Source of the DNA: a virus
Virus record (IMG/VR): IMGVR_UViG_3300030107_003368
Location: 1-23,532 of that record
Length of the DNA: 23,532 nucleotides
Strand: one strand, 5' to 3'
Of the stretch, positions 2,853-23,532 are shown one piece after another. The notes beneath the pieces were generated by a model. The model was not told the origin of the DNA. It did not search any database and worked only from the letters and a program-made list of their open reading frames with translations. Position numbers and translations under genes: made by a program. Numbering within the stretch: the first letter of the stretch is position 1; each line of letters opens with the position of its first letter.

Positions 2853-4297
2853 GCAAGACGGTTGTTCACGACTACACCCCGTACGGAGCGGCGCGACAGC
2901 TCTGGTACATCCGCAGCGCGGAGGTGCTGCTGGAGGGCCCTGCCGGTACTGGTAAGTCTCGGGCGCTGCTGGAGTACATCAACTACCTGTGTGAGCAGTA
3001 CGCAGGCATTCGCGTGCTGATGCTGCGCCAAACGCGGGAGTCGCTGACGGAGTCCTGCCTTGTCACGTTCGAGCAGGAGGTGCTGTGGCCTGGGCACCCG
3101 GCGATCCACGGCTCTGCGTCGAGGAACACGCGACAGAACTACCAGTACCCCAACGGCTCCCACATCGTCGTCGGCGGTCTCGACAAGCCTGAAAAGACGT
3201 TCTCGACGCAGTACGACGTAATCTGCGTCTTTGAGGCACGCGAGATCGGCGGCGACACCTGGGAGTGGCTGGCCCGCGCGAACCGCAACTTCAAGATGCC
3301 GTGGCAGATGCGGATTGCGGATACCAACCCAGCGGGCGAGTTCCACTGGCTGAACACGCATTTCCCGCAGGGGTTCCGCGAAGTTCCCGAGCGCCACACT
3401 ACGGACAAGCGCATCCGTCTGCTGTCGCGGCATCGAGACAACCCGGTCTACTGGGATCACGACAAGGACGAGTGGACCCGCGAGGGCAACTCGTACGTCA
3501 ACGACATCCTAGGCAACCTGACTGGTGCGCGTCGAGCCAACCTCTACGAAGGCAAGTGGGCCAGCGAAGAGGGCGTCATTTTCGAGGAGTGGGACCCGTC
3601 AGTCCACATCATCGACCACGAAGATGTGCCCGAGATGAAGTGGCATTTCGCCAGCTATGACAAGGGCCTGCGGCACCCGGGCACCCTGCAAGTGTGGGGC
3701 GTGCGGGATGACGCGATGTACCTACTGCGCGAAATCTACCAGACCAACCAAAACCAGGACTGGTGGGCCGAACGTGTCATGGAGGCGCACCGGGACTTTG
3801 TCCTGCAAGCCCTGGTCTGCGATCCGAGCGAGCCCGAGTACATTCGGGTGTTCAACGACCGGCTGGGTGCAGCTCGGGGTAGAGACGGCGACCGCATTGC
3901 GCGTCGAGCCAGAAACGCGATCCGCACCGGCATCGACATGGTGCGCTGGGCGCTGTCCAAGGCTGACAACGGCCCGCGCATCTACATGGTGCGTGACTCG
4001 CTACAGGGCCGGGACCAGGCGCGTGTGGACGCAATGAAGCCGTGCTGCGTGCTGGAGGAACTGCCCAGCTATGTCTGGACGAAGTCGAGGGATGGGCGTC
4101 CGGTCAACGAGCGGCCTGATCCGACCTGCTCAGATCACGGAGTAGACGCGCTGCGTTACGCGGCGATGTTCCTGTGGAACAGGGATATGTCGCTGCCGGA
4201 CAAGCCTCCCGAGTACGAAGAAGGGACCTGGGGCAGCCTGCTCGGGCACACCGAACTTCACGAACAGAACATGGGCCTGACCGATGCTTTCAACTGA
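2849..4297 (+). CDS. terL: Terminase large subunit
   Basis: This 482-residue DNA-packaging motor subunit drives DNA translocation by ATP hydrolysis and cuts the concatemer. The N-terminal ATPase has Walker A GPAGTGKS (30-37), the acidic Walker B region DVICVFEAREI (E129 and E132), and the coupling-type motif RIADTNPAGEFHW. The C-terminal RNase H-like nuclease has three acidic clusters: ASYDKG (D271), VCDPSEPE (D325) and SDHGVDALRY (D429, D433). Length is normal for the family. The start is TTG with a strong ribosome site, overlapping the nuclease gene; the end overlaps the portal start by 14 bases. No small terminase is recognisable nearby, so it may lie outside the window or be one of the unassigned small genes. 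Confidence 0.95.
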   Translation: MSKTVVHDYTPYGAARQLWYIRSAEVLLEGPAGTGKSRALLEYINYLCEQYAGIRVLMLRQTRESLTESCLVTFEQEVLWPGHPAIHGSASRNTRQNYQYPNGSHIVVGGLDKPEKTFSTQYDVICVFEAREIGGDTWEWLARANRNFKMPWQMRIADTNPAGEFHWLNTHFPQGFREVPERHTTDKRIRLLSRHRDNPVYWDHDKDEWTREGNSYVNDILGNLTGARRANLYEGKWASEEGVIFEEWDPSVHIIDHEDVPEMKWHFASYDKGLRHPGTLQVWGVRDDAMYLLREIYQTNQNQDWWAERVMEAHRDFVLQALVCDPSEPEYIRVFNDRLGAARGRDGDRIARRARNAIRTGIDMVRWALSKADNGPRIYMVRDSLQGRDQARVDAMKPCCVLEELPSYVWTKSRDGRPVNERPDPTCSDHGVDALRYAAMFLWNRDMSLPDKPPEYEEGTWGSLLGHTELHEQNMGLTDAFN

Positions 4298-6158
4298 ACC
4301 CAGCGCCCTACTGACAGAGATCCAGTCGGCTATCCGCTACCGGGACAGCCGCATCGAGGAGCTTGACGACATCGTTCGCAAGTACACGGGGCCGTACTAC
4401 GCCTCCTCGGGAACCTCTGGGTCGAGCGACTACGCTCCCGAGAACACCTACTACGAGTACCTGAGCCTGATGATCCCCAGGCTGGTGTACGACAACCCTA
4501 GGGTGCAGGTGTCGTCGCGCCGCCCTGGCGTGCAGCAGGACGTAGCAGAGGCGCTCAGACACGGCCTCAACCGCTGGTGCAAGGACAGCAACCTGCGCGG
4601 TACGCTGGTCGAACTGGCGACCGACATGCTGCTAGGGTTTGGCATCTGCCTGGTGCGCCAAGAGGAAAACCAGGGCGTCACGCTGGCTGAAGACAGCCCG
4701 ATTGACGAGGCCACACCGCAGTGGCCGGTTATCGAGCGGATCTCGCAGCGCCGGTTCTTCGTGGACCCCCAGGCAGAACGCTGGAAGGACGCACGGTTCT
4801 ACGGCCACATCTGGCGCAGGGACAAGGACGACCTGCTGCAAGAGGCTCGGGACAACAAGGACGCGGGCTGGAACCTGGACATCATCGAGTCGCTTGCAGA
4901 AAGCGAATCGCCGGGCGACGAAGACAGCATCTTCAAGGACAAGGAGAGCAGCTATCGCGGGGAAATCTGGTGCTACGAGGTCTGGGTCCCCGAGGTCGAA
5001 CTAGACGACTCTCCGGGCGCAGACGCTGGGTTCCACGGCACCATCTACACGCTGGGTGTAGGCCAGTCGATCTCGTCTAGCGGCGAGGTCAACGCCAAGG
5101 CTGGATACGTCCGCGAACCGCGCCCGTTCTACGGCCCCAGGACGGGCCCCTACGTCATGTTCGGGGTCTACAAGGTCCCCGACAACATCTACCCGCTGTC
5201 GCCTCTGGTGGCGGTTGAGGCGCAGATCCAAGACCTCAACACCCACGTTAGCGCAGCCAGCGCGTCGATGATGAAGCACAAGCGCATCGTTGGCGTGAAC
5301 GACGCTCGCACGGCGCAGCTCGTCAAGAACGTCCAGCACGACTACGTCACGGTCGTCCCGTTCGAGGATGGCAAGGCGCTGGTGCAGGAGTTTGAGCTGG
5401 GCGGCCAGACCGAGCAGCAGGCTATTTGGATCAACACCTGCCGCCAGCGAGCCGACCGAGTCCTGGGCATGGACGAGGCGCTGCGCGGATCTGTGAGTGG
5501 CGCAGGAACGGCGACCGAGCACACGATTGCCAGCGAGGCTGCGAACACGCGCATGGCGTTTGTGCGCCAGGTGTTTGCTGACGCGACGGTCAACCTCCTC
5601 AACATCGTCGCGTTCTATATGTATCACGACGACTCGATTGTGTTCCCGCTAGGCGAGGACGCGATCAAGGAAATGGGCTTGCCCCCGGAGGCCGCAGTCA
5701 TCTTCCAAGGCGGCGGACACGGCGAGGCTGCTGGGTATGCGTTCGACGACCTCGATCTAAACATCGAGCCGTACAGCATGGAGCGGGCGAGCGAGGGTCT
5801 GGCTCAGAAGCGTGCCCTGGAGATGCACACGATCCTGATGAACTCGCTGCCGTCGATGGCGGCGTTCCCCGATTACCCCTGGCGCGACCACTTCGCCAAG
5901 ATCGGGAACGCAATGAACGCGCCGGATATGTCGGAGCTTGTCACTGACGACATGCTCGGGCGTCTCGCATCTGACTTGCTGCGAGCGCAGCAGTCTGAAG
6001 CGCAGGCTCAACCGAAGTCGTCTGAGCCGCGTCTGGGCAAGGATGTGGCGGGTGGTCCGCTCATGCCCACGAATGCACCGCGCCCGTCACGGGCAGTACC
6101 AATGATAGGGGAGATGATGGGGCAGATGCTTCAAGGCCCCATGCAACCAGGATCATGA
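4284..6158 (+). CDS. Portal (head-tail connector vertex) protein
   Basis: This 624-residue protein lies immediately after the terminase and before a scaffold gene, the classic portal position. The N-terminus (about 1-70) has a helix followed by YYEYLSLMIPRLVYDNPRVQV, and the middle has ERISQRRFFVDPQAERWKDA, both typical of podovirus portals. The helical region around 310-420 with many Gln/Arg (INTCRQRADRVLGMDEALRG) fits the stem and crown. The tail end is Met/Gln/Pro-rich. It forms the dodecameric ring through which DNA enters and leaves. The start lies inside the end of terL, and its stop overlaps the next ATG (ATGA). Length falls between T7 (536) and P22 (725) portals. Confidence 0.9.
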   Translation: MLSTEPSALLTEIQSAIRYRDSRIEELDDIVRKYTGPYYASSGTSGSSDYAPENTYYEYLSLMIPRLVYDNPRVQVSSRRPGVQQDVAEALRHGLNRWCKDSNLRGTLVELATDMLLGFGICLVRQEENQGVTLAEDSPIDEATPQWPVIERISQRRFFVDPQAERWKDARFYGHIWRRDKDDLLQEARDNKDAGWNLDIIESLAESESPGDEDSIFKDKESSYRGEIWCYEVWVPEVELDDSPGADAGFHGTIYTLGVGQSISSSGEVNAKAGYVREPRPFYGPRTGPYVMFGVYKVPDNIYPLSPLVAVEAQIQDLNTHVSAASASMMKHKRIVGVNDARTAQLVKNVQHDYVTVVPFEDGKALVQEFELGGQTEQQAIWINTCRQRADRVLGMDEALRGSVSGAGTATEHTIASEAANTRMAFVRQVFADATVNLLNIVAFYMYHDDSIVFPLGEDAIKEMGLPPEAAVIFQGGGHGEAAGYAFDDLDLNIEPYSMERASEGLAQKRALEMHTILMNSLPSMAAFPDYPWRDHFAKIGNAMNAPDMSELVTDDMLGRLASDLLRAQQSEAQAQPKSSEPRLGKDVAGGPLMPTNAPRPSRAVPMIGEMMGQMLQGPMQPGS

Positions 6159-14902: not shown

Positions 14903-15138
14903 ACAAGACCAAGGCGCAGCGCATCCGAGAGATGACAGCAGAGGGCGTAGGCGGGCTGCCTGTTGGGTCAACGCGGCCCGATGACCCTAGGTACAGGCGC
15001 TTCACCCAGGCCAGCACGATGCCGTACGAGCAGTACCACCCCTATGACTTTCATGTCGATTCGTTCGGAAGGCTACGCATTGGCGCGGCCCCTGATGGCG
15101 GCGGCTTCGGTAGGCAGGAGCGGAGGAGGAGGCCGTGA
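14899..15138 (+). CDS. Small protein of unknown function
   Basis: This 79-residue protein starts at the ATG that overlaps the nozzle stop (ATGA) and reads MNKTKAQRIREMTAEGVGGL. It has a basic helix at the N-terminus, an aromatic-rich middle (MPYEQYHPYDFHVDSFGRL) and a Gly then Arg-rich end (RQERRRRP). No family is recognised. The C-terminal DNA also supplies the GGAGGAGGAGG ribosome site of the next gene, so part of its Arg/Gly-rich tail may reflect that overlap. Coupling on both sides argues for a real gene with a structural or assembly role. Confidence 0.6.
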   Translation: MNKTKAQRIREMTAEGVGGLPVGSTRPDDPRYRRFTQASTMPYEQYHPYDFHVDSFGRLRIGAAPDGGGFGRQERRRRP

Positions 15139-15644
15139 TGATAAACCGCATGATTGACGGCAAAGAGATCAGCGTGGCCCCTCATGTCAATGTGTACCCG
15201 GCGACCGAAGAGGATGTCCCCCGCCTGTTGTGGCTGGGGCACCTGTTCAACGAGGAGAGCGGTCGCCAGTTCGACATTGACAACGACCACTGGTGCCACT
15301 TCTGGCAGCAAGCCATTGCGAACGACCTGGGATGTGCGTTCTACGCAGCGCCGTCTAGGGAGGCCGACCCTGTCGGCATGATTATGGGGATCGTGTACCC
15401 GTCACACATCGACCAGCGGCTAGAGGTGACCGAGTCGCTGTGGTACTTGAGCAAGCCGTACAGGAGAGCCCGCACGGGCATCGAACTGCTGGACGCCCTG
15501 GAATGCTTTGCCGAGCTTATCGGCGCATCACGGATCAACATGACCCATTTGGCGAACCCCCACGGCAGGCGCATCCATCGCCTGTTTGAGCGACGAGGCT
15601 ACGTTGCTGCCGAGTGCAGCTACTACAAAGAGGTGAACCAGTAA
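15138..15644 (+). CDS. GNAT-family N-acetyltransferase
   Basis: This 168-residue protein starts at ATG 15138, preceded by a very strong GGAGGAGGAGG (15122-15132) and overlapping the previous stop (TGATG). A GTG at 15135 is the alternative start. The fold order fits GNAT: an opening YPATEEDVPRLLWL, a central beta strand pair (VGMIMGIVYP, LEVTESLWYL), the acetyl-CoA-binding motif with R112-x-G114 in RRARTGIELLDAL, then a helix and IHRLFERRGYVAAECSYYKEV. It would transfer an acetyl group from acetyl-CoA to an amine. Single GNAT genes are found among tail genes of several podoviruses; the substrate is unknown. It could modify a virion protein or a host target. Confidence 0.85.
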   Translation: MINRMIDGKEISVAPHVNVYPATEEDVPRLLWLGHLFNEESGRQFDIDNDHWCHFWQQAIANDLGCAFYAAPSREADPVGMIMGIVYPSHIDQRLEVTESLWYLSKPYRRARTGIELLDALECFAELIGASRINMTHLANPHGRRIHRLFERRGYVAAECSYYKEVNQ

Positions 15645-16240
15645 TGGCTGCGGCAACCCCTATCTTTGCAGGCGCAAACGCCGCTATGGGCGTTTTGGGA
15701 ATGATCGAGGGCAAGCGTCAGACCGACAAAGCTGCGGACGCGAACCAGGCAGAGCGCGAACGGGCTTTGCGGTTCCAGCGCCGCATGCGTAAACGAGCCT
15801 TGCGTCAGATCAACAAGATGCAGAAGGGCGCGACCGAGAAGATCCTAGCCAGCAGCAAGCGGGCTAAGGGCGATGCGCTGACTGCGCTGGCTACAGGTGG
15901 CTGGGATACCGGGTCGGGCCAAAGCCTTGCGATGCGCCGCGCAGGTCAGCGTGACGAGGCTAACGCGCTGACGAACCTGGCAAGCGCAATGGCGGGGCAG
16001 CGTACTGCGGTGTACTCAGGCCAGGAGTTCCCCATGATCCAGTACGACACTGGGGCCGGGGCTCGAATGGCAGAGCAAGGCTGGGGCATGCTTGGCAGTG
16101 GGCTAGCCGGGCTTGTAGGCAGTTTAGGTCAGCCAAAGATGACAGCCGATCAGGGACTGGAAGCCCTCAAGGGCGGCCTGCAAGGCACCGCCAAAGCCTT
16201 CGCATCTGGTCTGCCCGACTACTGGAACCCGTACAAGTAA
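15644..16240 (+). CDS. Internal virion protein, T7 gp14-like by position and size
   Basis: This 198-residue protein starts at ATG overlapping the preceding TAA (TAATG), with AGAGGTGA just before it. The N-terminus is small-residue and hydrophobic (PIFAGANAAMGVLGMIEG). It is followed by a long basic amphipathic helix (about 20-70, many Arg/Lys/Gln) and a second helical stretch, then a Gly-rich hydrophobic segment (WGMLGSGLAGLVGSLG, about 147-162). T7 gp14 has 196 residues and lies just before gp15 and gp16, exactly as here. The predicted role is an ejection protein that inserts into the host envelope during DNA entry. Sequence similarity to gp14 was not established. Confidence 0.65.
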   Translation: MAAATPIFAGANAAMGVLGMIEGKRQTDKAADANQAERERALRFQRRMRKRALRQINKMQKGATEKILASSKRAKGDALTALATGGWDTGSGQSLAMRRAGQRDEANALTNLASAMAGQRTAVYSGQEFPMIQYDTGAGARMAEQGWGMLGSGLAGLVGSLGQPKMTADQGLEALKGGLQGTAKAFASGLPDYWNPYK

Positions 16241-16244
16241 ACCA

Positions 16245-18773
16245 ATGGCACGCCTACACACAGCACTCAAGAGCACGGTCGGCGGCAGTTACGCCACGGG
16301 TATGGGCGGGTTCGCTGAAGGCGTCCGCCAAGCGGAAGCCGACACGCGCCTAGACGAGCGGCATGAGCAGCAGATGGAGCTGGGACGCCAGCAGCTAGAG
16401 TTCGCAGAACTCAAGGCTGAAGAACTGGCAACGCAGCAGGAGACAGACCGCCTGTTGCGCCAGACCAAGCTGGACGACCTCCAGGGCAAGATCAAGGCTG
16501 GCGAGGATGTGTTCGGTGATCCGACGCTGGGCCTCGACCGCAAGCCGCTTGACGAGGCGACACTGCTGGTTCAGCAGCGCGAAGGCATCTTGGCGCAGGG
16601 CGGCTCGACGGCTGGCATCGACCGTGCGCTGGCGTTGAAGATAGACGAACTCGACGCCGTTGTGACGCAGGCCAAGCTGAAGCAGAACCGCAACAGCGAC
16701 ATTCGGTACATCACCGAAATGGCAAGCCGTGGCGACGTTGCGCTTGACGACGAGTACGTTGCCAGCCTGGAAGATATGACTCCCGCGCAGTTGGATCGCT
16801 TGCGCGACAACTGGGAGCGCATGGGGCAGGCGCAGCAAAGCGTGGGCTCCCTGCGAACCGCGCTGCTAGAAGAGGTCAATGGCTGGAACGCTACCACTAC
16901 TGCGGGCAGGCAGGCGCGAGACGCCTTCAAGCTGGCGATGGACAGCCCTATCCCGTCGCAGTACACCAACAAGCTGACGGGCCAGACTATGCGGATCGAC
17001 ACTCCGCAAGAGGTGGAGCAATACTACCGGGCCCTGTTCAACGAGAAGCTAATAGAGACGCTGCCTGCGGAGATTCAGGAGCTGATTGATGAAGGCGATG
17101 CTGAGGAAAAAGCAATGCCTACATACGAGGGCATGCGCGAACGGGCTACCGGAATCTTCAGCCAGCACCGCGCCCAGCAAGCCCAGGCCCAAGCCCAAGC
17201 AGCAGGCGTCGGCGTGCCTGGGACGCCGGTTGCTGACTCGGCCGACCCGGTTGATGCGGCGCTGGCAATTGGCGAGGGGGCCACAGTAGAAGGTGGCGGC
17301 GAAGCTGACGCAGCCTCGCCGTTTGACATGCGCCCAGCTAACGTGCGCGGCGTCACAAATGCGGCAGCACGCCAGAACATCGAGACGGCCCTTGTTCGCC
17401 TTGAAGAAGAATTGGCGGGCATTGACGCAGACCCCACACGGGCTGATGCAGCACGGCGGAATGAAGTGCAGCGCAGAATTGACAACTTCCGGTTCCGCCT
17501 GGCTCTTGGCGAGGCTGACCCCAACGGCCAGTTTAGCGCAGAGCAGAAGCTGGAAATGTTTGACACGGTGCGCCGCCAGGCTGCTCCTGTCCCCAAAGAA
17601 ATGCAGGCCCCAGCGCAGACTGGCACGGGTGATTCGTTGAGTTTGCGTGTGCAGAACGCTCGCGGCGCAACTAGCCCATCTGCGCGACAGAACATCGAGG
17701 CAACTATTGCTCGCCAGCAAGAAAAGTTGGCAGCTATGGATTCAGATCCTGAGTCAGAAGATAGACACCAGCGGTTGCGGCTTCAGCACACCATTGACCA
17801 CCTGCAATTCCGTTTGGCTCTAGGAGAAGCCGACCCAGACAACAAGTTTAGCGCAGACGAAAAGGTCGAGCTGTTTGTCAGTCTTCAAGGTCAATTAGCC
17901 CCTGTAGAGCCGCCTGTCGAGGCTGACGCCGCGCCTGTTCCCGGCCCGATGCCCAGCACAGAGTTTATGGGCGGTGTCGGCCTAGGCCCTAGGCTTGGCG
18001 GCCTAGGCATGGGTGCTGGCTACCAGCATCAAGACCTAGAAGGGCGCATGATAGCGGACGACCTTGCAGGCGCTGAAGTGGTCGAGGGCGTAGTCGGTCC
18101 TGCGGCACAGCAGCGCGCTGGCCGCGCCGACTTTGCTGCCTCTAACTTCGGCATGGGTGGCGTCGAGGACGTTGGCGAGGTGCGTGGCGGGCGCGAGCGT
18201 ACGCGCATTGCAAGCCCGCTGACAGCAGCTCGCAGACGCCCGCAGAGCATGCGGACCCGCGAGGAGCACCGCGCTGCTGTGGCCGACCTTGCGCGTCAGG
18301 CACAGGAACTGGAACAGCAAGAGACTGACAAGAAGCGCCGCGCTGAACTGGGCCGCGCACGCAAAGATCTGCTGCAAGAAGAGCAGCGCCTGGAGCAAGC
18401 CCTCGACGCATTCGAGTCGCGGCGCGAGCAGATGGAGCAGCAAATTGCAGGGGTCGGCGTTGGCGAAGGACAGCAATCTGCGCTGCCGCCTAACGACTAT
18501 GAGCGCCTGTCGCTGCTAGTCAGCAAGCAAGCGTCTGGAGCCACGCTGAGGCCGGTTGAAACGCAGGCGTTGAAGCGGCTACTTGCGGGTGTCGGCTCAG
18601 AGCAGGCGTGGGATCTGTACCGCGAGTTGGCTGCTGCTGGGTATGAGTACCCCGAACTGCTTGAAATCGCCCAGGACGACGGCAGGCGACCTGCGAGCGA
18701 CACTCCGGGGCGCGGCGTCGGAGGGCGCACAGGCCGTGGCTACGGGCGGCAGGCCAAGCCTGATGACAACTAG
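16245..18773 (+). CDS. Large internal virion (ejection) protein, T7 gp15-like by position, with a tandem domain duplication
   Basis: This 842-residue protein begins four bases after the previous stop. Residues about 25-85 are a coiled coil rich in Gln/Glu/Leu, and about 100-290 are helical. About 300-360 is an Ala/Pro/Gly linker. Residues 362-449 and 467-554 are two copies of an 88-residue helical unit (43 identical positions by my count) sharing ARQNIE and FRLALGEADP. A Gly-rich hinge lies at about 572-595, and another strong coiled coil (about 665-735) follows. The composition (Ala, Gln, Glu, Arg; no signal peptide or catalytic motif) fits an ejected channel or core protein. T7 gp15 (747 residues) is the positional counterpart; homology is inferred, not shown. 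Confidence 0.65.
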   Translation: MARLHTALKSTVGGSYATGMGGFAEGVRQAEADTRLDERHEQQMELGRQQLEFAELKAEELATQQETDRLLRQTKLDDLQGKIKAGEDVFGDPTLGLDRKPLDEATLLVQQREGILAQGGSTAGIDRALALKIDELDAVVTQAKLKQNRNSDIRYITEMASRGDVALDDEYVASLEDMTPAQLDRLRDNWERMGQAQQSVGSLRTALLEEVNGWNATTTAGRQARDAFKLAMDSPIPSQYTNKLTGQTMRIDTPQEVEQYYRALFNEKLIETLPAEIQELIDEGDAEEKAMPTYEGMRERATGIFSQHRAQQAQAQAQAAGVGVPGTPVADSADPVDAALAIGEGATVEGGGEADAASPFDMRPANVRGVTNAAARQNIETALVRLEEELAGIDADPTRADAARRNEVQRRIDNFRFRLALGEADPNGQFSAEQKLEMFDTVRRQAAPVPKEMQAPAQTGTGDSLSLRVQNARGATSPSARQNIEATIARQQEKLAAMDSDPESEDRHQRLRLQHTIDHLQFRLALGEADPDNKFSADEKVELFVSLQGQLAPVEPPVEADAAPVPGPMPSTEFMGGVGLGPRLGGLGMGAGYQHQDLEGRMIADDLAGAEVVEGVVGPAAQQRAGRADFAASNFGMGGVEDVGEVRGGRERTRIASPLTAARRRPQSMRTREEHRAAVADLARQAQELEQQETDKKRRAELGRARKDLLQEEQRLEQALDAFESRREQMEQQIAGVGVGEGQQSALPPNDYERLSLLVSKQASGATLRPVETQALKRLLAGVGSEQAWDLYRELAAAGYEYPELLEIAQDDGRRPASDTPGRGVGGRTGRGYGRQAKPDDN
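17328..17907 (+). repeat. Tandem in-frame duplication in the 842-residue protein
   Basis: The units 17328-17592 and 17643-17907 are offset by exactly 315 bases (105 codons). The encoded 88-residue units align without gaps, with 43 identities; the DNA differs widely at third positions, so the duplication is old and has been kept by selection on protein. Confidence 0.85.
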
Positions 18774-18808: not shown

Positions 18809-21800
18809 ATGACGATCCAAGACGAAACTCTCGCGGCGACAAACCAGCCGGTAGACCCGCTCAAGTCCTACGAGCGTCGGTTTCTGAAGGAGCAGGACAA
18901 GCACCAGAGAGACGCAGTCACGGAGGGCATGACGGCGCAGTTCGGCCGTGTCTTGACCGCTGACGAGGTGCGGGCGCAGGTCACGCCCGAGATGGTCAAC
19001 GAGTGGAAAGAGGCGGGCAACGCGCAGTTTGTGGCGCGGCTAGAGGATCGCCTAAACGAAGACTACGCGCTGGAGCGTTACGGGGCCGACCAGACGCGGC
19101 TGTGGGAGCGCCAGGTCATCCGGTCCAAGCCGATTGGCGCGTGGGAGTCGATGACAACCAACGTGCTGGGCGAGGAGCGCACCTTCGGCATTGCGCTGCC
19201 TTTCTTTTCGGCTGGCGCAGAGGGAGCTGGTTTCACTGAGTTGGTTGCAGCGGCTAGGGCTGACGCTGCTGGCACGGCCAGTGAGGAGCAGATTCGCCTG
19301 CTAGAAGACGCGGCGGACTACAACGCGCGAGAACGAGAAGCAGGCTGGGCGACGGCTGGCCGAATCCTGGGCGAAGCACCTGCGTTCCTGGGCGAGTTCT
19401 TGACTGGCGGAACGCTGGTCACAGGGCTGTCCCGCGCGGGAGTGCGCTATGCAGGAATGCGTGCTGTCTCCAACGCGCTGAAGAAGTACGGGGCTCTACG
19501 CATTGCGGCTCAAGGCGTAAGTCGCAGCAAGTTGACGGCTACGACGCGCATAGGCCGCATTGCTCAAGGCACAGGCCGGGCCGCTGTGGCTACGCCGTAC
19601 ATGCTGGGAGCCCAGGAGGCTGTTGGCGAGGTTGTGGGTGGCGTGGCTACCGGCTTCCAGGGCGGCGGCAGGCTGCGCTCTGCGATCAACACGGAGTTGC
19701 TGGAGCGCAACTTCGACATCAGCACAGACGAGGCCCTGCGGCTGTACACGGAGGCTGTAGACGACCAGGGCGTGCTGGATGTGCTGCCCAAGGCGCTGGC
19801 CGACCGCTCCATTGAGATCTTCTCGGAGTCTATGGGCGGCGCTCTGAGCGAACTGGTCCCGGCCATCAACATCACGGCGCTGAAGAAGCTGTCGAATGTG
19901 CGCGGGATCAAGAAGGCGCGAGAGGTGCTGGAGGCTGGCGGCTTCAACGGCGTCATCGAGGAGCTTGGCGAGGAGTTCCTGGGCGGTGTGCTGCGCGTGG
20001 GCGCGGCTGAGTTGGACCCGGAGACGTTTGCTGGCCTAGAGGGATCGCTCGACCAGTTCACGGACTGGCGCGAAATCGTCGGCATGGCGGCTGGCTTCGC
20101 TGGCATGAGCGGCACGGCTGCGACCCTTGGCTACACTGGCGAGCGCCTGTTCCGCGAGAAAGGTCTGCCGGTCGAGCAAGAGACACCGGAGCGTACGGAG
20201 CCGACGTTCGACACGGTGCTGGGCACGCGCGATGCTGCGCCGTCTGCTACTGAGGACTTGGCCGATGTGCAGGCTCGGGCCGTGGCTGAGGTGAACAGGG
20301 GCCTGGAGACCCTGGAGCGCCCCGAGGGCGAGCCTGCGCCGCAGGTGACAGTCGCTACGGAGATCAGCGACGACATGGCTGCTGAGATTGAGGCAGCCCG
20401 CGAGCTGGGCATCGACGTTATCCCGATGGACGGGATGCCGACACCTGTACCTGGGCAGTTCGTGGAGCCTGGTGTCGTGGCGCTGAACGCAAACGCCGAG
20501 GCGTATGTGCCTCCGGGGGCGTTGCCGAGCCAGCGCCACTGGTATCAGATCAGCGCGGTTTTCCTGCACGAACGAGTCCACGACCTTGTGGAGCGTCTGA
20601 AGGCTAGGCCGGACGACCTGCGGCAGTTGTTCCGCAACATGCAGGCTGTCAGCCCTGCACGGTTTGACGCTGCGTTGGATCACTACAACGACCTGCGCGA
20701 CAAGCAGGGTCTGGCACCGCTGAAGTTGCAGGAGCTAACTGACCCGGAAGCCAGCGCGTACAGCGAGGCAGCGGACGAGACTACGGCGTTCCTGGCCCAG
20801 CAGCTTGTGCCGTACATGGCCGAGATTGCACGCACGGGCGACACTCAGGTACTGGAGTCGATGCTTGCCACGGCTCCGAAGAGCCTGGTCGAGAAGATCC
20901 TCGATGCGCTGGTTTCGCTGGCGAACCTGATCCCGGGGCTGAACATCGACACCCGGGGGATCAAGCGTCTGCGTCAGGCGCTGCGGGAGCAGGGTGCCGA
21001 GCTAGAGGCTGAGGCCGCACAGGGCGACCTGAGAGCGCGTGCTGCGTACGCTAGGATTCTGGCCGAGGCGTTTGGGGCGCGGCCGCTGGAGGGCCCGCCT
21101 CAGCAGCAGGGCCCGCCTCAGCAGCAGGGCCCGCCTCAACTTCAGGGACCGCCGAGACCCACGCCCGCAGCACAGGAGCCTCGCCCCAGCGACGAGCAGG
21201 TCAAAGCAGACCTACGCCAGTATCGCACTGAGGGGCGCTGGAAGGGCGACCTGCGGTGGAGCGCAGATGCGCTGTTCCAGAAGTGGAAGCAGGTGCGAGC
21301 CGAACTGGCCGAGGAGCAGAGAGCCGCAGCGCAGGTAGAGCCTGAGCCTGCCCCTGAGCCTGCGGTCGCTGTCGAGCCTGAACCGGCGGCGGTCGAGCCT
21401 GCTCCCGAGCCTGCTCCGGTAGAGGAGCCTGCCAAGCCTCAGCAGCCGGGCAGGCGGCGACGGCGGCAGCGCGTGCTGGAGATCGGCAACCGCGTGCGCC
21501 TGCCTGACGGGCGCGAAGGCCGCGTCGTTGACCTGACTGGGTCTGACCGCATTGACCCGGCGTACGGCACCAGTGTCCAGCGGGCGCAGGTCGAGTTCCC
21601 TAACGGCGAGCGCGTCATTGTTCCGGCTGCTGACATGCAGCGCATCAGCCGTGGCACGCGCACGCCAGCCGAACAGCAACGACAGGAGGAGTATCGCAGG
21701 GAGCTGGAGCGTGGGGATATTCAGCCGCGCTTCGCCCTAGGCTGGCACGGCACGGGCGCGGAGTTCGACGAGTTCTCGACGGAGTTCATGGGCACTGGCG

Positions 21801-23532
21801 AGGGTGCCCAGGCGTATGGGTGGGGGCTGTACTTTGCGACCAAGCGGGCGGTTGCGGAGTGGTACCGGGCAAAACTTGCTGGTCGCATTGTATTTGTTCA
21901 CGAAAGCGGACGGCGCTTCGACGGAACCACGCCCCCAGGCTCCAAGAAAAGGGCAAAGAAGAAGGCATCGAGGAAAGGCGGTGCGGTCCCCGCAGCAGCG
22001 CCTGGCCCCCCCTCGGTTCGTGAAATCGAGTCCTATGCCTATGAGAGCCTTCAGGCTATGGGGGATGCGTTCTTAGACGGAGACTATCGCCTGACCCCAG
22101 AGATTGTCAGAGAGATGGCTCAAGAGGCGGCAAAGCATGAGCGCAGTCTTGCCGCACTTGAAACTCCTTATGCACCAAGGGCTGTACACCTTGGGGCTGC
22201 GAAGATCCTCGAAGACATAGGCTCCGTTGATGGCGGGGAATACAAGCTAGAGCTAAAAGGCGGCTCCCTCCTCCGCGTAGACCTCGCCCCCGCCGAGGAG
22301 GACTACCTCCTGTGGGACCGCCCGCTGTCGGAGCAGAGCGAGAAGGTTAGGGAGGCGCTGGGGCCCATTGTGGAGCGCATGGCCGACGACGCAGGGCTCT
22401 ACGTCGGGGAACATACTTTCGGAGAGGACTACCGGATTACCCGGTTCAAGGTCTTTCGTGGGGACGGCATGGAGGCACCCATCGCATTTGGTGGCGGCAC
22501 TCTCTACAAGACCCGTGAGGCTGCCGAGGCGGCCATCCGAAGTGCGTTCCAGAACGAAGCCCAGGACGGCAGCGATCTTTATAACCGACTCGCCACCCGA
22601 CCCTTCTTCGGCTCCGACCGCGCCGCCTCCCTCGCCCTCCTCGCCGCAGGCATCCGTGGCATCAAGTACCTGGACGGGACGAGCAGAGCTGCTGGCGAGG
22701 GCTCCTACAACTACGTCATCTTTGACGCCGCTGATGTCGAGATCTCGGGGCGCTTCGCCCTAGCGCCGAGTTTTAGCACCAAAGAAGCCGCTCAAGCGTG
22801 GAGCATACTGCAACGCGCCGAGCAGTACGCGCCAGAAGAGGGCGAGGACCCCATCAAGCACCGGGTGCTGTACCACAGCGGCACGTCCGAGGCGGAAGAT
22901 GTTCGAGGGGGAATTGAGCCGCGATTTGGCGACTGGCTTGCGGAGGTTCTAGCCGGTGCCACCGATGAAGAAATAGACGCCGAAGAGAGTTTTGTCCCCG
23001 TCGCCTACTTCGACGAAGTCCCCGGTTGGCTACGCACGCAGGTTGGGCGCAAGCTCGGAAAGAGCTACGAGGCCGTTACGAGGGACGATATCCGCGACCA
23101 CGGGTATCTCGCGGTGGTCTACAACGTGGACGAGGATACGGGAGAGCCAGTTCACAACATCTACCGTGTGCTCGACCCCCAAGCGGAGATGTCGGAAGTG
23201 GAGGACGCCACGGGAAAGGTGTCGCGCCTCTACGAAACCGAACTTTACGAGGAAGGCTTGTGGGGTCCGCCAAAGTCCCCCTTCGGGATGGAGCCCGGCG
23301 ACTTTATTACGGCGGATGTGATAGAGCCGGACGTTTTCCTCACCGGGGATGCGCTGTTGGAGTTCATGGACGCCTACAAGGCGACCATCAACCCGGATAT
23401 CCGCTTCGCCCTAGCGCCCACCAGTCTCCTTGAACGCTTCGACCCAGACGGCAAACTCACCGTCAAGTGGGAGGAGTTGAGCGAGAGCTTCGTGATCCGC
23501 ATGGCTGACCGCCTGCTGCCGGTCAAGAAGAT
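18809..23532 (+). CDS. Giant polyvalent ejection protein (partial): metallopeptidase-like and ADP-ribosyltransferase-like domains
   Basis: The frame stays open from ATG 18809 to the window end, over 1574 codons, so the C-terminus is missing. Residues 1-170 are charged and helical. About 175-400 holds hydrophobic helices and IEIFSESMGGAL / VIEELGEEFLGGVL segments. About 520-715 is a zincin-like domain with HERVH at 587-591 (HExxH) and acidic third-ligand candidates E653/E657. GPPQQQ and Pro/Glu linkers follow (about 762-880), then a beta-barrel-like segment (about 890-945). An ADP-ribosyltransferase-like domain spans about 972-1314 (H980 in WHGTG, Y1008 in GWGLYFA). A second LYHSGT-type domain spans about 1321-1531. 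The positional counterpart is T7 gp16. Inferred role: ejected into the host, where its domains modify or cut host proteins. Confidence 0.8.
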   Translation, partial: MTIQDETLAATNQPVDPLKSYERRFLKEQDKHQRDAVTEGMTAQFGRVLTADEVRAQVTPEMVNEWKEAGNAQFVARLEDRLNEDYALERYGADQTRLWERQVIRSKPIGAWESMTTNVLGEERTFGIALPFFSAGAEGAGFTELVAAARADAAGTASEEQIRLLEDAADYNAREREAGWATAGRILGEAPAFLGEFLTGGTLVTGLSRAGVRYAGMRAVSNALKKYGALRIAAQGVSRSKLTATTRIGRIAQGTGRAAVATPYMLGAQEAVGEVVGGVATGFQGGGRLRSAINTELLERNFDISTDEALRLYTEAVDDQGVLDVLPKALADRSIEIFSESMGGALSELVPAINITALKKLSNVRGIKKAREVLEAGGFNGVIEELGEEFLGGVLRVGAAELDPETFAGLEGSLDQFTDWREIVGMAAGFAGMSGTAATLGYTGERLFREKGLPVEQETPERTEPTFDTVLGTRDAAPSATEDLADVQARAVAEVNRGLETLERPEGEPAPQVTVATEISDDMAAEIEAARELGIDVIPMDGMPTPVPGQFVEPGVVALNANAEAYVPPGALPSQRHWYQISAVFLHERVHDLVERLKARPDDLRQLFRNMQAVSPARFDAALDHYNDLRDKQGLAPLKLQELTDPEASAYSEAADETTAFLAQQLVPYMAEIARTGDTQVLESMLATAPKSLVEKILDALVSLANLIPGLNIDTRGIKRLRQALREQGAELEAEAAQGDLRARAAYARILAEAFGARPLEGPPQQQGPPQQQGPPQLQGPPRPTPAAQEPRPSDEQVKADLRQYRTEGRWKGDLRWSADALFQKWKQVRAELAEEQRAAAQVEPEPAPEPAVAVEPEPAAVEPAPEPAPVEEPAKPQQPGRRRRRQRVLEIGNRVRLPDGREGRVVDLTGSDRIDPAYGTSVQRAQVEFPNGERVIVPAADMQRISRGTRTPAEQQRQEEYRRELERGDIQPRFALGWHGTGAEFDEFSTEFMGTGEGAQAYGWGLYFATKRAVAEWYRAKLAGRIVFVHESGRRFDGTTPPGSKKRAKKKASRKGGAVPAAAPGPPSVREIESYAYESLQAMGDAFLDGDYRLTPEIVREMAQEAAKHERSLAALETPYAPRAVHLGAAKILEDIGSVDGGEYKLELKGGSLLRVDLAPAEEDYLLWDRPLSEQSEKVREALGPIVERMADDAGLYVGEHTFGEDYRITRFKVFRGDGMEAPIAFGGGTLYKTREAAEAAIRSAFQNEAQDGSDLYNRLATRPFFGSDRAASLALLAAGIRGIKYLDGTSRAAGEGSYNYVIFDAADVEISGRFALAPSFSTKEAAQAWSILQRAEQYAPEEGEDPIKHRVLYHSGTSEAEDVRGGIEPRFGDWLAEVLAGATDEEIDAEESFVPVAYFDEVPGWLRTQVGRKLGKSYEAVTRDDIRDHGYLAVVYNVDEDTGEPVHNIYRVLDPQAEMSEVEDATGKVSRLYETELYEEGLWGPPKSPFGMEPGDFITADVIEPDVFLTGDALLEFMDAYKATINPDIRFALAPTSLLERFDPDGKLTVKWEELSESFVIRMADRLLPVKK
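20509..20620 (+). other. HExxH zinc-peptidase motif region
   Basis: HERVH at residues 587-591 (codons 20567-20581) follows a strand-rich block ending PGQFVEPGVVALNANAE, as in zincin-like peptidase domains of phage polyvalent proteins. A helix with SEAADETTAFL downstream offers E653 or E657 as third zinc ligand. Confidence 0.7.
21091..21155 (+). repeat. 18-bp tandem repeat coding GPPQQQ linker
   Basis: Two perfect 18-base units (21091-21108, 21109-21126), a third with three changes (21127-21144) and a partial fourth encode GPPQQQ, GPPQQQ, GPPQLQ and GPPR. This is a flexible linker after the peptidase-like domain, of a kind that grows and shrinks by slippage. Confidence 0.9.
21722..22750 (+). 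other. ADP-ribosyltransferase-like domain
   Basis: WHGTGAEFDEF (H980) and the block GTGEGAQAYGWGLYFA (Y1008) match the first and second motifs of H-Y-type ADP-ribosyltransferase folds in phage polyvalent proteins. LLWDRPLSEQSEKV, AGIRGIKYLDGTSR and NYVIFDAADVEI (to about residue 1312) recur in that domain type. Between the second motif and LLWDRPLSEQ is about 120 residues including a Lys-rich stretch (KKRAKKKASRKGG). NAD-dependent activity is inferred; a catalytic Glu is not pinpointed. Confidence 0.6.
22751..22767 (+). repeat. RFALAP junction motif (copy 2 of 3)
   Basis: cgcttcgccctagcgcc encodes RFALAP at residues 1315-1320. It is identical over 17 bases to 23402-23418 (residues 1532-1537), and its first 13 bases also occur at 21728-21740 (RFALG, residues 974-978). 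Each copy sits at a boundary between predicted domains. Confidence 0.85.

Follow-up and report, generated by a model that had tools for sequence, protein, structure and literature searches.

Effectors that phages deliver into their hosts are hard to recognise, and a position in the late operon is the usual clue to them. The closest described systems are the phage polyvalent proteins, for which the combination of MPTase and ART domains in one protein, together with injection, was set out in 2017 by Iyer et al. (PMC5512222), and the ARTs of phage heads, which were surveyed in 2022 (PMC9503650). Another comparable case is the virion RNA polymerase of N4 (gp50), an ejected protein of 3500 aa that has an HExxH domain (PMC12633501) and 0 cysteines, and that differs from the protein discussed here in carrying an RNA polymerase. 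We describe a locus at which an uncultured, probably short-tailed phage lineage likely encodes a giant polyvalent protein that is ejected; its N-terminal half lies in the sequence analysed.

The window, by which we mean the whole stretch of 23,532 nucleotides that was analysed, is the entire IMG/VR record (IMGVR_UViG_3300030107_003368), and the giant gene at its end is therefore truncated (Table 1). The frame begins with ATG, runs stop-free through 1574 codons (18809..23530) and is open at its 3' end; judging by the length of its relatives, the stretch in the window is perhaps half of the protein. Much of what a sequence-only reading of this DNA had listed within the long frame is there, namely an HExxH motif (HERVH, residues 587-591), an H...Y block (W-H980-G and G-L-Y1008-F) and low-complexity linkers with GPPQQQ and PEPAP repeats. 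The hydrophobic helices on the same list have weaker support, as the highest 19-residue hydropathy averages, 1.26 (at 423) and 1.40 (at 693), correspond to no clear transmembrane helix.

Table 1. Positions of the giant gene, its predicted domains and junction words, and selected genes of the window.
Feature	Position	Strand	Remarks
Portal protein, podovirus-like	4284..6158	+	phrog_1216, phrog_332; weak match to SU10 portal 7z44, E 0.012
GNAT acetyltransferase gene within the cassette	15135..15644	+	Pfam Acetyltransf_1 above cut-off; phrog_1249
208-aa gene, gp14 position	15614..16240	+	0 cysteines; syntenic; 25-33% identity to relatives
842-aa gene, gp15 position	16245..18773	+	0 cysteines; syntenic in G001, G011, G012, G002; alignment without PDB homologue
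Giant ORF, N-terminal 1574 aa of polyvalent protein	18809..23532	+	Cut by contig end; 0 cysteines
Conserved N-terminal helical domain, residues 90-450	19076..20158	+	27-31% identity to 4 relatives; common to relatives
Probable zincin metallopeptidase domain, residues 517-764	20357..21100	+	Homologous in G001, G012, G002, G011; HERVH at 20567-20581, E657 at 20777-20779
Low-complexity Pro/Gln/Glu/Ala linker, residues ~760-880	21086..21448	+	Break of ordinary composition at ~795-840
SH3/Tudor/KOW-like beta domain, residues 888-948	21470..21652	+	AF2 pLDDT 60-92; best Z 8.2 to Tudor 6hq9
RFAL copy 1	21728..21739	+	Directly upstream of ART, before the ART His
ART-PolyVal-like domain, residues 976-1313	21743..22747 (residues 979-1313)	+	H980 (21746-21748), GEGAQAYG (residues 997-1004), Y1008 (21830-21832), N1301; ~200-aa insert between halves
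RFAL(AP) copy 2	22751..22762	+	Directly downstream of ART
Module of residues 1319-1531, possible second ART of the sequence-only reading	22763..23401	+	58% identical in L145
RFAL(AP) copy 3	23402..23413	+	End of module 1319-1531

The relatives of this phage were found through its TerL, which led to 37 related viral contigs; the larger records were searched with the giant protein and their genes mapped. A common gene order emerged, running from TerL, portal and capsid through two tail-type genes, GNAT, a small protein and a protein of 580-840 aa to the giant, and in five TerL-linked relatives the giant frame is in, or consistent with, the same slot as in the window. Complete giants have 3116 aa (G001), 2438 aa (G011) and 3478 aa (G002), and partial ones more than 2970 aa (G012) and more than 2176 aa (G004). 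TerL matches among isolated phages were distant ones only, a host search by TerL in bacterial genome contigs gave no relative, and a peptide-pattern search of viral contigs gave no near relative of the whole giant. In one relative, G011 (L044), a further cysteine-free gene of 723 aa lies downstream of the giant, and the GNAT gene, whose position is kept in G001, G002 and G012, has 4 cysteines, unlike its neighbours.

The frame map agrees with the earlier placement of the giant after the 208-aa and 842-aa genes. The description of these two neighbours as gp14- and gp15-like holds for their order, size, lack of cysteine and synteny in relatives, but not for their sequence, as none of the cassette proteins matched T7 gp14, gp15 or gp16. 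A single member of the 208-aa family touches the 'DNA ejection' family phrog_21132 (E 0.07); the 842-aa and 1316-aa neighbours had no match in phage genomes, and profiles of the 842-aa protein, the nozzle and the adaptor gave nothing useful against the PDB. Similarly, the giant shares with T7 gp16 its position, being the last and largest gene of an ejection cassette, and its 0 cysteines, and the place of gp16 assigned to it by the sequence-only reading stands in that positional sense; homology does not, since searches of Pfam, PHROG and the PDB returned nothing that matches gp16, and no transglycosylase domain was detected in the protein.

Comparison among the giants revealed that their middle differs between relatives, unlike the conserved ends. 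At the N-terminal end, the alignment with four relatives spans residues 90-445. Within this conserved helical domain, a stretch at residues 339-433 is LPD14-like (23.2 bits, E 7.7e-5, under the Pfam PF18827 gathering score of 27), and a profile of the domain found no match in the PDB. At the other end, and beyond the reach of the window, G001, G012, G002 and G004 have in common a C-terminal region of 740-1050 residues. Two more viral contigs (L058 and L059) match the conserved N-terminal domain distantly, at 25%.

To the variable middle belong residues 976-1313, which we firmly assign to an ART-like domain. In an alignment of 45 divergent rows, H980, GEGAQAYG, Y1008 and Y1019 are invariant; the H...Y block had been read correctly from the letters. 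The AF2 model, with a core pLDDT of about 80-95, most resembles chain 9k3a_B of the cyanophage A4 pre-ejectosome, at Z 10.9 and rmsd 5.1 over 166 residues, and for the ART part the next match is tankyrase (Z 7.4). The span of 970-1315 proposed for it is indeed ART, but as one domain, whose halves the alignment places on either side of an insert of ~200 residues; tblastn recovers the ART of phage vir555 in two pieces, at 45% identity, within residues 976-1332. BFVD matches of the model are annotated as ART-PolyVal or as large polyvalent proteins. Searching the PDB with the ART profile by sequence gave chance matches only, and Foldseek of the model against the PDB gave nothing at E <= 0.001, its top rows being driven by the SH3-like domain. 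Since the Pfam match at residues 979-1027 (23.4 bits, E 1.1e-4) is under the PF18760 gathering score of 31.2, we call the domain ART-PolyVal-like; five other giants (L065, L080, L092, L107 and L145) exceed that cut-off. The wider family is matched by at least 572 viral stretches of IMG/VR, and MPTase and ART were already described together in polyvalent proteins in 2017 (PMC5512222), so that the idea of an unusual combination in the ejection slot finds no support.

Catalysis by this domain is less certain than its fold. ART-PolyVal and Tox-ART-HYD2 domains are defined by a His in strand 1, a Tyr in strand 2 and an Asp in strand 5, and at the place of the third residue D1306 is replaced by S or N in several relatives and no Glu is found, which makes NAD+ chemistry uncertain. 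N1301 is conserved in at least 90% of sequences, and both it and D1289 are more conserved than D1306.

Residues 517-764 are a probable zincin by motif. While the zincin fold comprises a helix, a three-stranded sheet and two helices, its motif is HEXXH with a Glu in the downstream helix, and such a candidate third ligand, E657, lies in a conserved helix downstream of HERVH and is kept in relatives, with HELVH aligned in G001 and G012 and HEGSH in G002. The AF2 model (pLDDT 68) has a helix, two strands and the HExxH helix but reaches no more than Z 3.2 against ArdC (6i89), and Foldseek of this mediocre model gave no confident PDB match. The zincin claim of the sequence-only reading therefore stands for the HExxH...E arrangement aligned in relatives, but not for a fold match. 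As to its target, processing of its own polypeptide by such a zincin is at least as likely as the attack on host proteins.

These two domains bear on an alternative in which the giant is an ejected structural core protein that aids DNA entry, its ART-like and zincin-like domains being inactive or structural relics. The unclear third ART residue, with no Glu, would suit such a reading, as would the giant of G011, which retains the zincin domain and has lost HExxH (YRELLRAH), and the N4 virion RNA polymerase, which according to PMC5512222 is packaged without processing although it has an MPTase. Against it, H980, Y1008 and GEGAQAYG are invariant across the 45 divergent sequences, HExxH is retained in G001, G012 and G002, and solo ART proteins hold the same motif as the ART of the giants. 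On balance, we regard relic domains as distinctly unlikely.

Independent evidence on delivery comes from amino acid composition. Cysteines were counted in the three cassette proteins of the window (208 aa, 842 aa and the giant), in G001, G011, G012 and G002, and in L140-L144. None of the 1574 residues of the window giant is a cysteine, and the 842-aa and 208-aa neighbours also have none; the giants of the family together have 0 cysteines in 15,752 aa, and the mean over the remaining genes of the family is 0.97%. The same depletion extends to 36 further giants with an ART, drawn from diverse phages (8 cysteines in 77,186 aa, vs 0.69% in neighbouring frames), and to 35 solo ART proteins (9 in 14,926 aa, vs 1.0% in neighbours). 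Ejection proteins of well-known phages are similar, with 1 cysteine in 2261 residues for T7, 0 in 4294 for N4, 0 in 1309 for P22, 0 in 2416 for phiKMV and 3 in 3155 for the cassette proteins of A-4L; summed over these five phages, ejection-slot proteins have 4 cysteines in 13,435 aa vs 109 in 15,370 aa for the rest of their structural proteins. Little or no cysteine is also seen outside the ejection set, in some scaffold and adaptor genes, so absence by itself is no proof of ejection; the giant of G027 has 8 cysteines in 4664 aa. Nonetheless, judged from sequence, the near-absence of cysteine supports ejection of the window giant, and a likely cause is that such proteins travel unfolded along a route that is oxidising or narrow. 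We did not find this observation in the literature searched, a body of work outside which most subscription journals fall. Given that neighbouring genes carry 0.5-1%, cysteine counts offer a simple and independent test for phage-delivered proteins.

A second line of evidence comes from the structural match, since the sequence of 9k3a_B is that of ORF27 (1717 aa) from Anabaena phage A-4L, a protein encoded in the corresponding cassette slot; a protein of this slot with an ART-like region has therefore already been seen in virions. ORF27, solved as part of the virion pre-ejectosome, aligns with the ART model over its region 952-1610 (Z 10.9), contains YHGT and GEWGSGTYF and has 1 cysteine; it differs from the window protein in giving no sequence match and having no HExxH, and its length is below that of the window protein's relatives. 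All of this bears on whether the giant might instead be a late-expressed cytoplasmic effector that is absent from the virion. Position alone is circumstantial, which leaves some room for that view, but the giant shares zero cysteine with the ejection-slot proteins of the five well-known phages, it keeps its position behind two other cysteine-free genes, and the A4 protein of the same slot, with its ART-like region, was solved in the virion. We thus hold a purely cytoplasmic protein to be very improbable. Three indirect lines of support favour delivery of the giant together with the phage DNA: the gene order of relatives, cysteine exclusion as in ejection proteins and the 9k3a_B match. To this extent the delivery implied by the earlier suggestion, that of a protein which helps DNA entry and carries several enzymatic warheads, is supported; a role in DNA entry is not, as neither a T7 gp16 match nor a transglycosylase was found, and the warheads are enzymes by prediction.

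The modules of the giant are bordered by a short recurring word. RFAL occurs three times in the window giant (0.05 expected, P 2e-5) and its longer form RFALAP twice (0.0004 expected), and the words differ by phage: RFALxP in the window, RFSKxP in G027, NYSI in the L069 group and RFQP in L067. Over-represented 4-mers sought without bias in other giants include NYSI, FSIS, RFQP, LFMP and FSLG. Among 18 non-redundant giants in which a word precedes the ART, the protein's own 4-mer recurs elsewhere 12 times vs 0.29 by composition; permuted pairings give 1.9 recurrences, with 3 of 10,000 permutations reaching 12, and the corresponding 3-mer figure is 0 of 10,000. A word precedes the ART in 19 of 34 giants vs 6 of 35 solo ART proteins (P 0.001). 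Away from ART, 9 of 20 word copies lie where an alignment of unlike giants ends, against an expectation of 3.5 (P 0.003), in a test whose word patterns were picked after the data had been seen and in which one word copy per protein is present at the ART by construction.

The clearest example of such an edge is the module at 1319-1531, for which a possible second ART had been suggested. It is a real and transferable module, as residues 1315-1550 are 58% identical in another phage (L145/G027) and the alignment runs from RFAL copy 2 to just past copy 3, but no ART fold was recognised in it, given a poor AF2 model (pLDDT mostly 30-60) and no Pfam match. The shared module is edged by RFALAP on both sides in the window and by RFSKRP on both sides in L145; the 2191-aa part of L145 contains no RFAL, and the 4664-aa giant of G027 has 8 RFSK-type words (0.34 expected). 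This frame (L147, G027:C1:29500-49400), on a 54-kb viral contig, also has three zincin-type motifs (HEAQH, HEAFH and HEAFGH) and at least one ART beside its eight words, and ahead of it lie two genes (350 and 403 aa) whose products lack cysteine.

Could the words be recombination seams, that is, short DNA repeats that serve module exchange and have no function in the protein? All three RFAL copies of the window share an identical 12-nt DNA sequence, CGCTTCGCCCTA, for which about 4e-4 would be expected from codon frequencies; this identity points to recent duplication there and is what seams would leave. On the other hand, in L060, L069, L071, L079, L080 and L145 the codons of the word vary and the peptide is kept, making the peptide the conserved entity, and the shared module that is edged by RFALAP in one phage and by RFSKRP in the other is the opposite of what a shared seam predicts. 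We therefore judge seams unlikely. Words that are repeated within a phage and differ between phages suggest, as far as their sequence can tell, a recognition or processing site, an observation that we did not find in the literature searched, whose coverage is incomplete.

When such processing would take place is a separate matter. Were the giant a maturation polyprotein, its zincin would cleave the RFAL junctions while still in the prohead, and each piece would be packaged on its own. Words at module edges, repeated within each phage and unlike between phages, fit this, and P1 DdrB is reported in PMC5512222 to be processed before packaging; the same source, however, has the N4 virion RNA polymerase packaged whole, and some word-bearing giants (L060, L069, L065, L094 and L107) have no HExxH or HExxxH in the stretch covered. 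Maturation in the prohead hence appears improbable to us. An embedded zincin as the general cutter of every word was also considered and dropped, given the giant of G011 without HExxH and the several word-bearing giants without the motif in the stretch covered. Our tentative proposal, which we hold to be possible rather than probable, is that giant ejection proteins are polyproteins in which every module is bordered by a phage-specific word, that incoming modules adopt the word of the recipient, and that a cognate factor, probably a peptidase, frees the enzymes after delivery.

Under the reading that we prefer, that of an ejected polyvalent giant, the protein would be packaged in the head and would then reach the host cell by way of the tail, possibly unfolded. 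Virion and entry work would fall to the conserved N-terminal domain and to the C-terminal domain known from relatives, and the exchangeable middle would supply effector modules, of which the ART would use NAD+ to modify a host target. As recognition sites, the phage-specific words at the junctions would most likely serve the proteolytic separation of modules, perhaps by the embedded zincin. Homology, word enrichment and the absence of cysteine are each beyond chance, so the observation is not accidental. If the polyprotein proposal is true, words and cysteine exclusion would be sequence signatures of host-delivered phage proteins, and the junction words make it testable whether polyvalent proteins are split into individual enzymes, and where and by what.

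Overall, the locus is best understood beside its closest counterparts. Among annotated phages, the giant of vir555 (Caudoviricetes sp., BK063671, 1974 aa) has an ART that is 45% identical, an HExxH motif and a place after an internal virion protein gene; it differs in having its ART before the zincin and no detected N-terminal homology, and is annotated as hypothetical only. Neither junction words nor cysteine exclusion is mentioned in PMC5512222 as far as its text was searched. Like the polyvalent proteins of that account, the window protein is very large and multidomain, is encoded near virion genes and combines a zincin-type MPTase with a Tox-ART-HYD2-type ART; what sets it apart from them is its conserved part, an N-terminal domain with sub-threshold similarity to LPD14. 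Two unlike enzymatic domains, ART-like and HExxH...E, are predicted by sequence in one chain, and the gene lies among virion genes. The protein thus joins an already known group, the phage polyvalent proteins, as a new lineage in the gp16 position.
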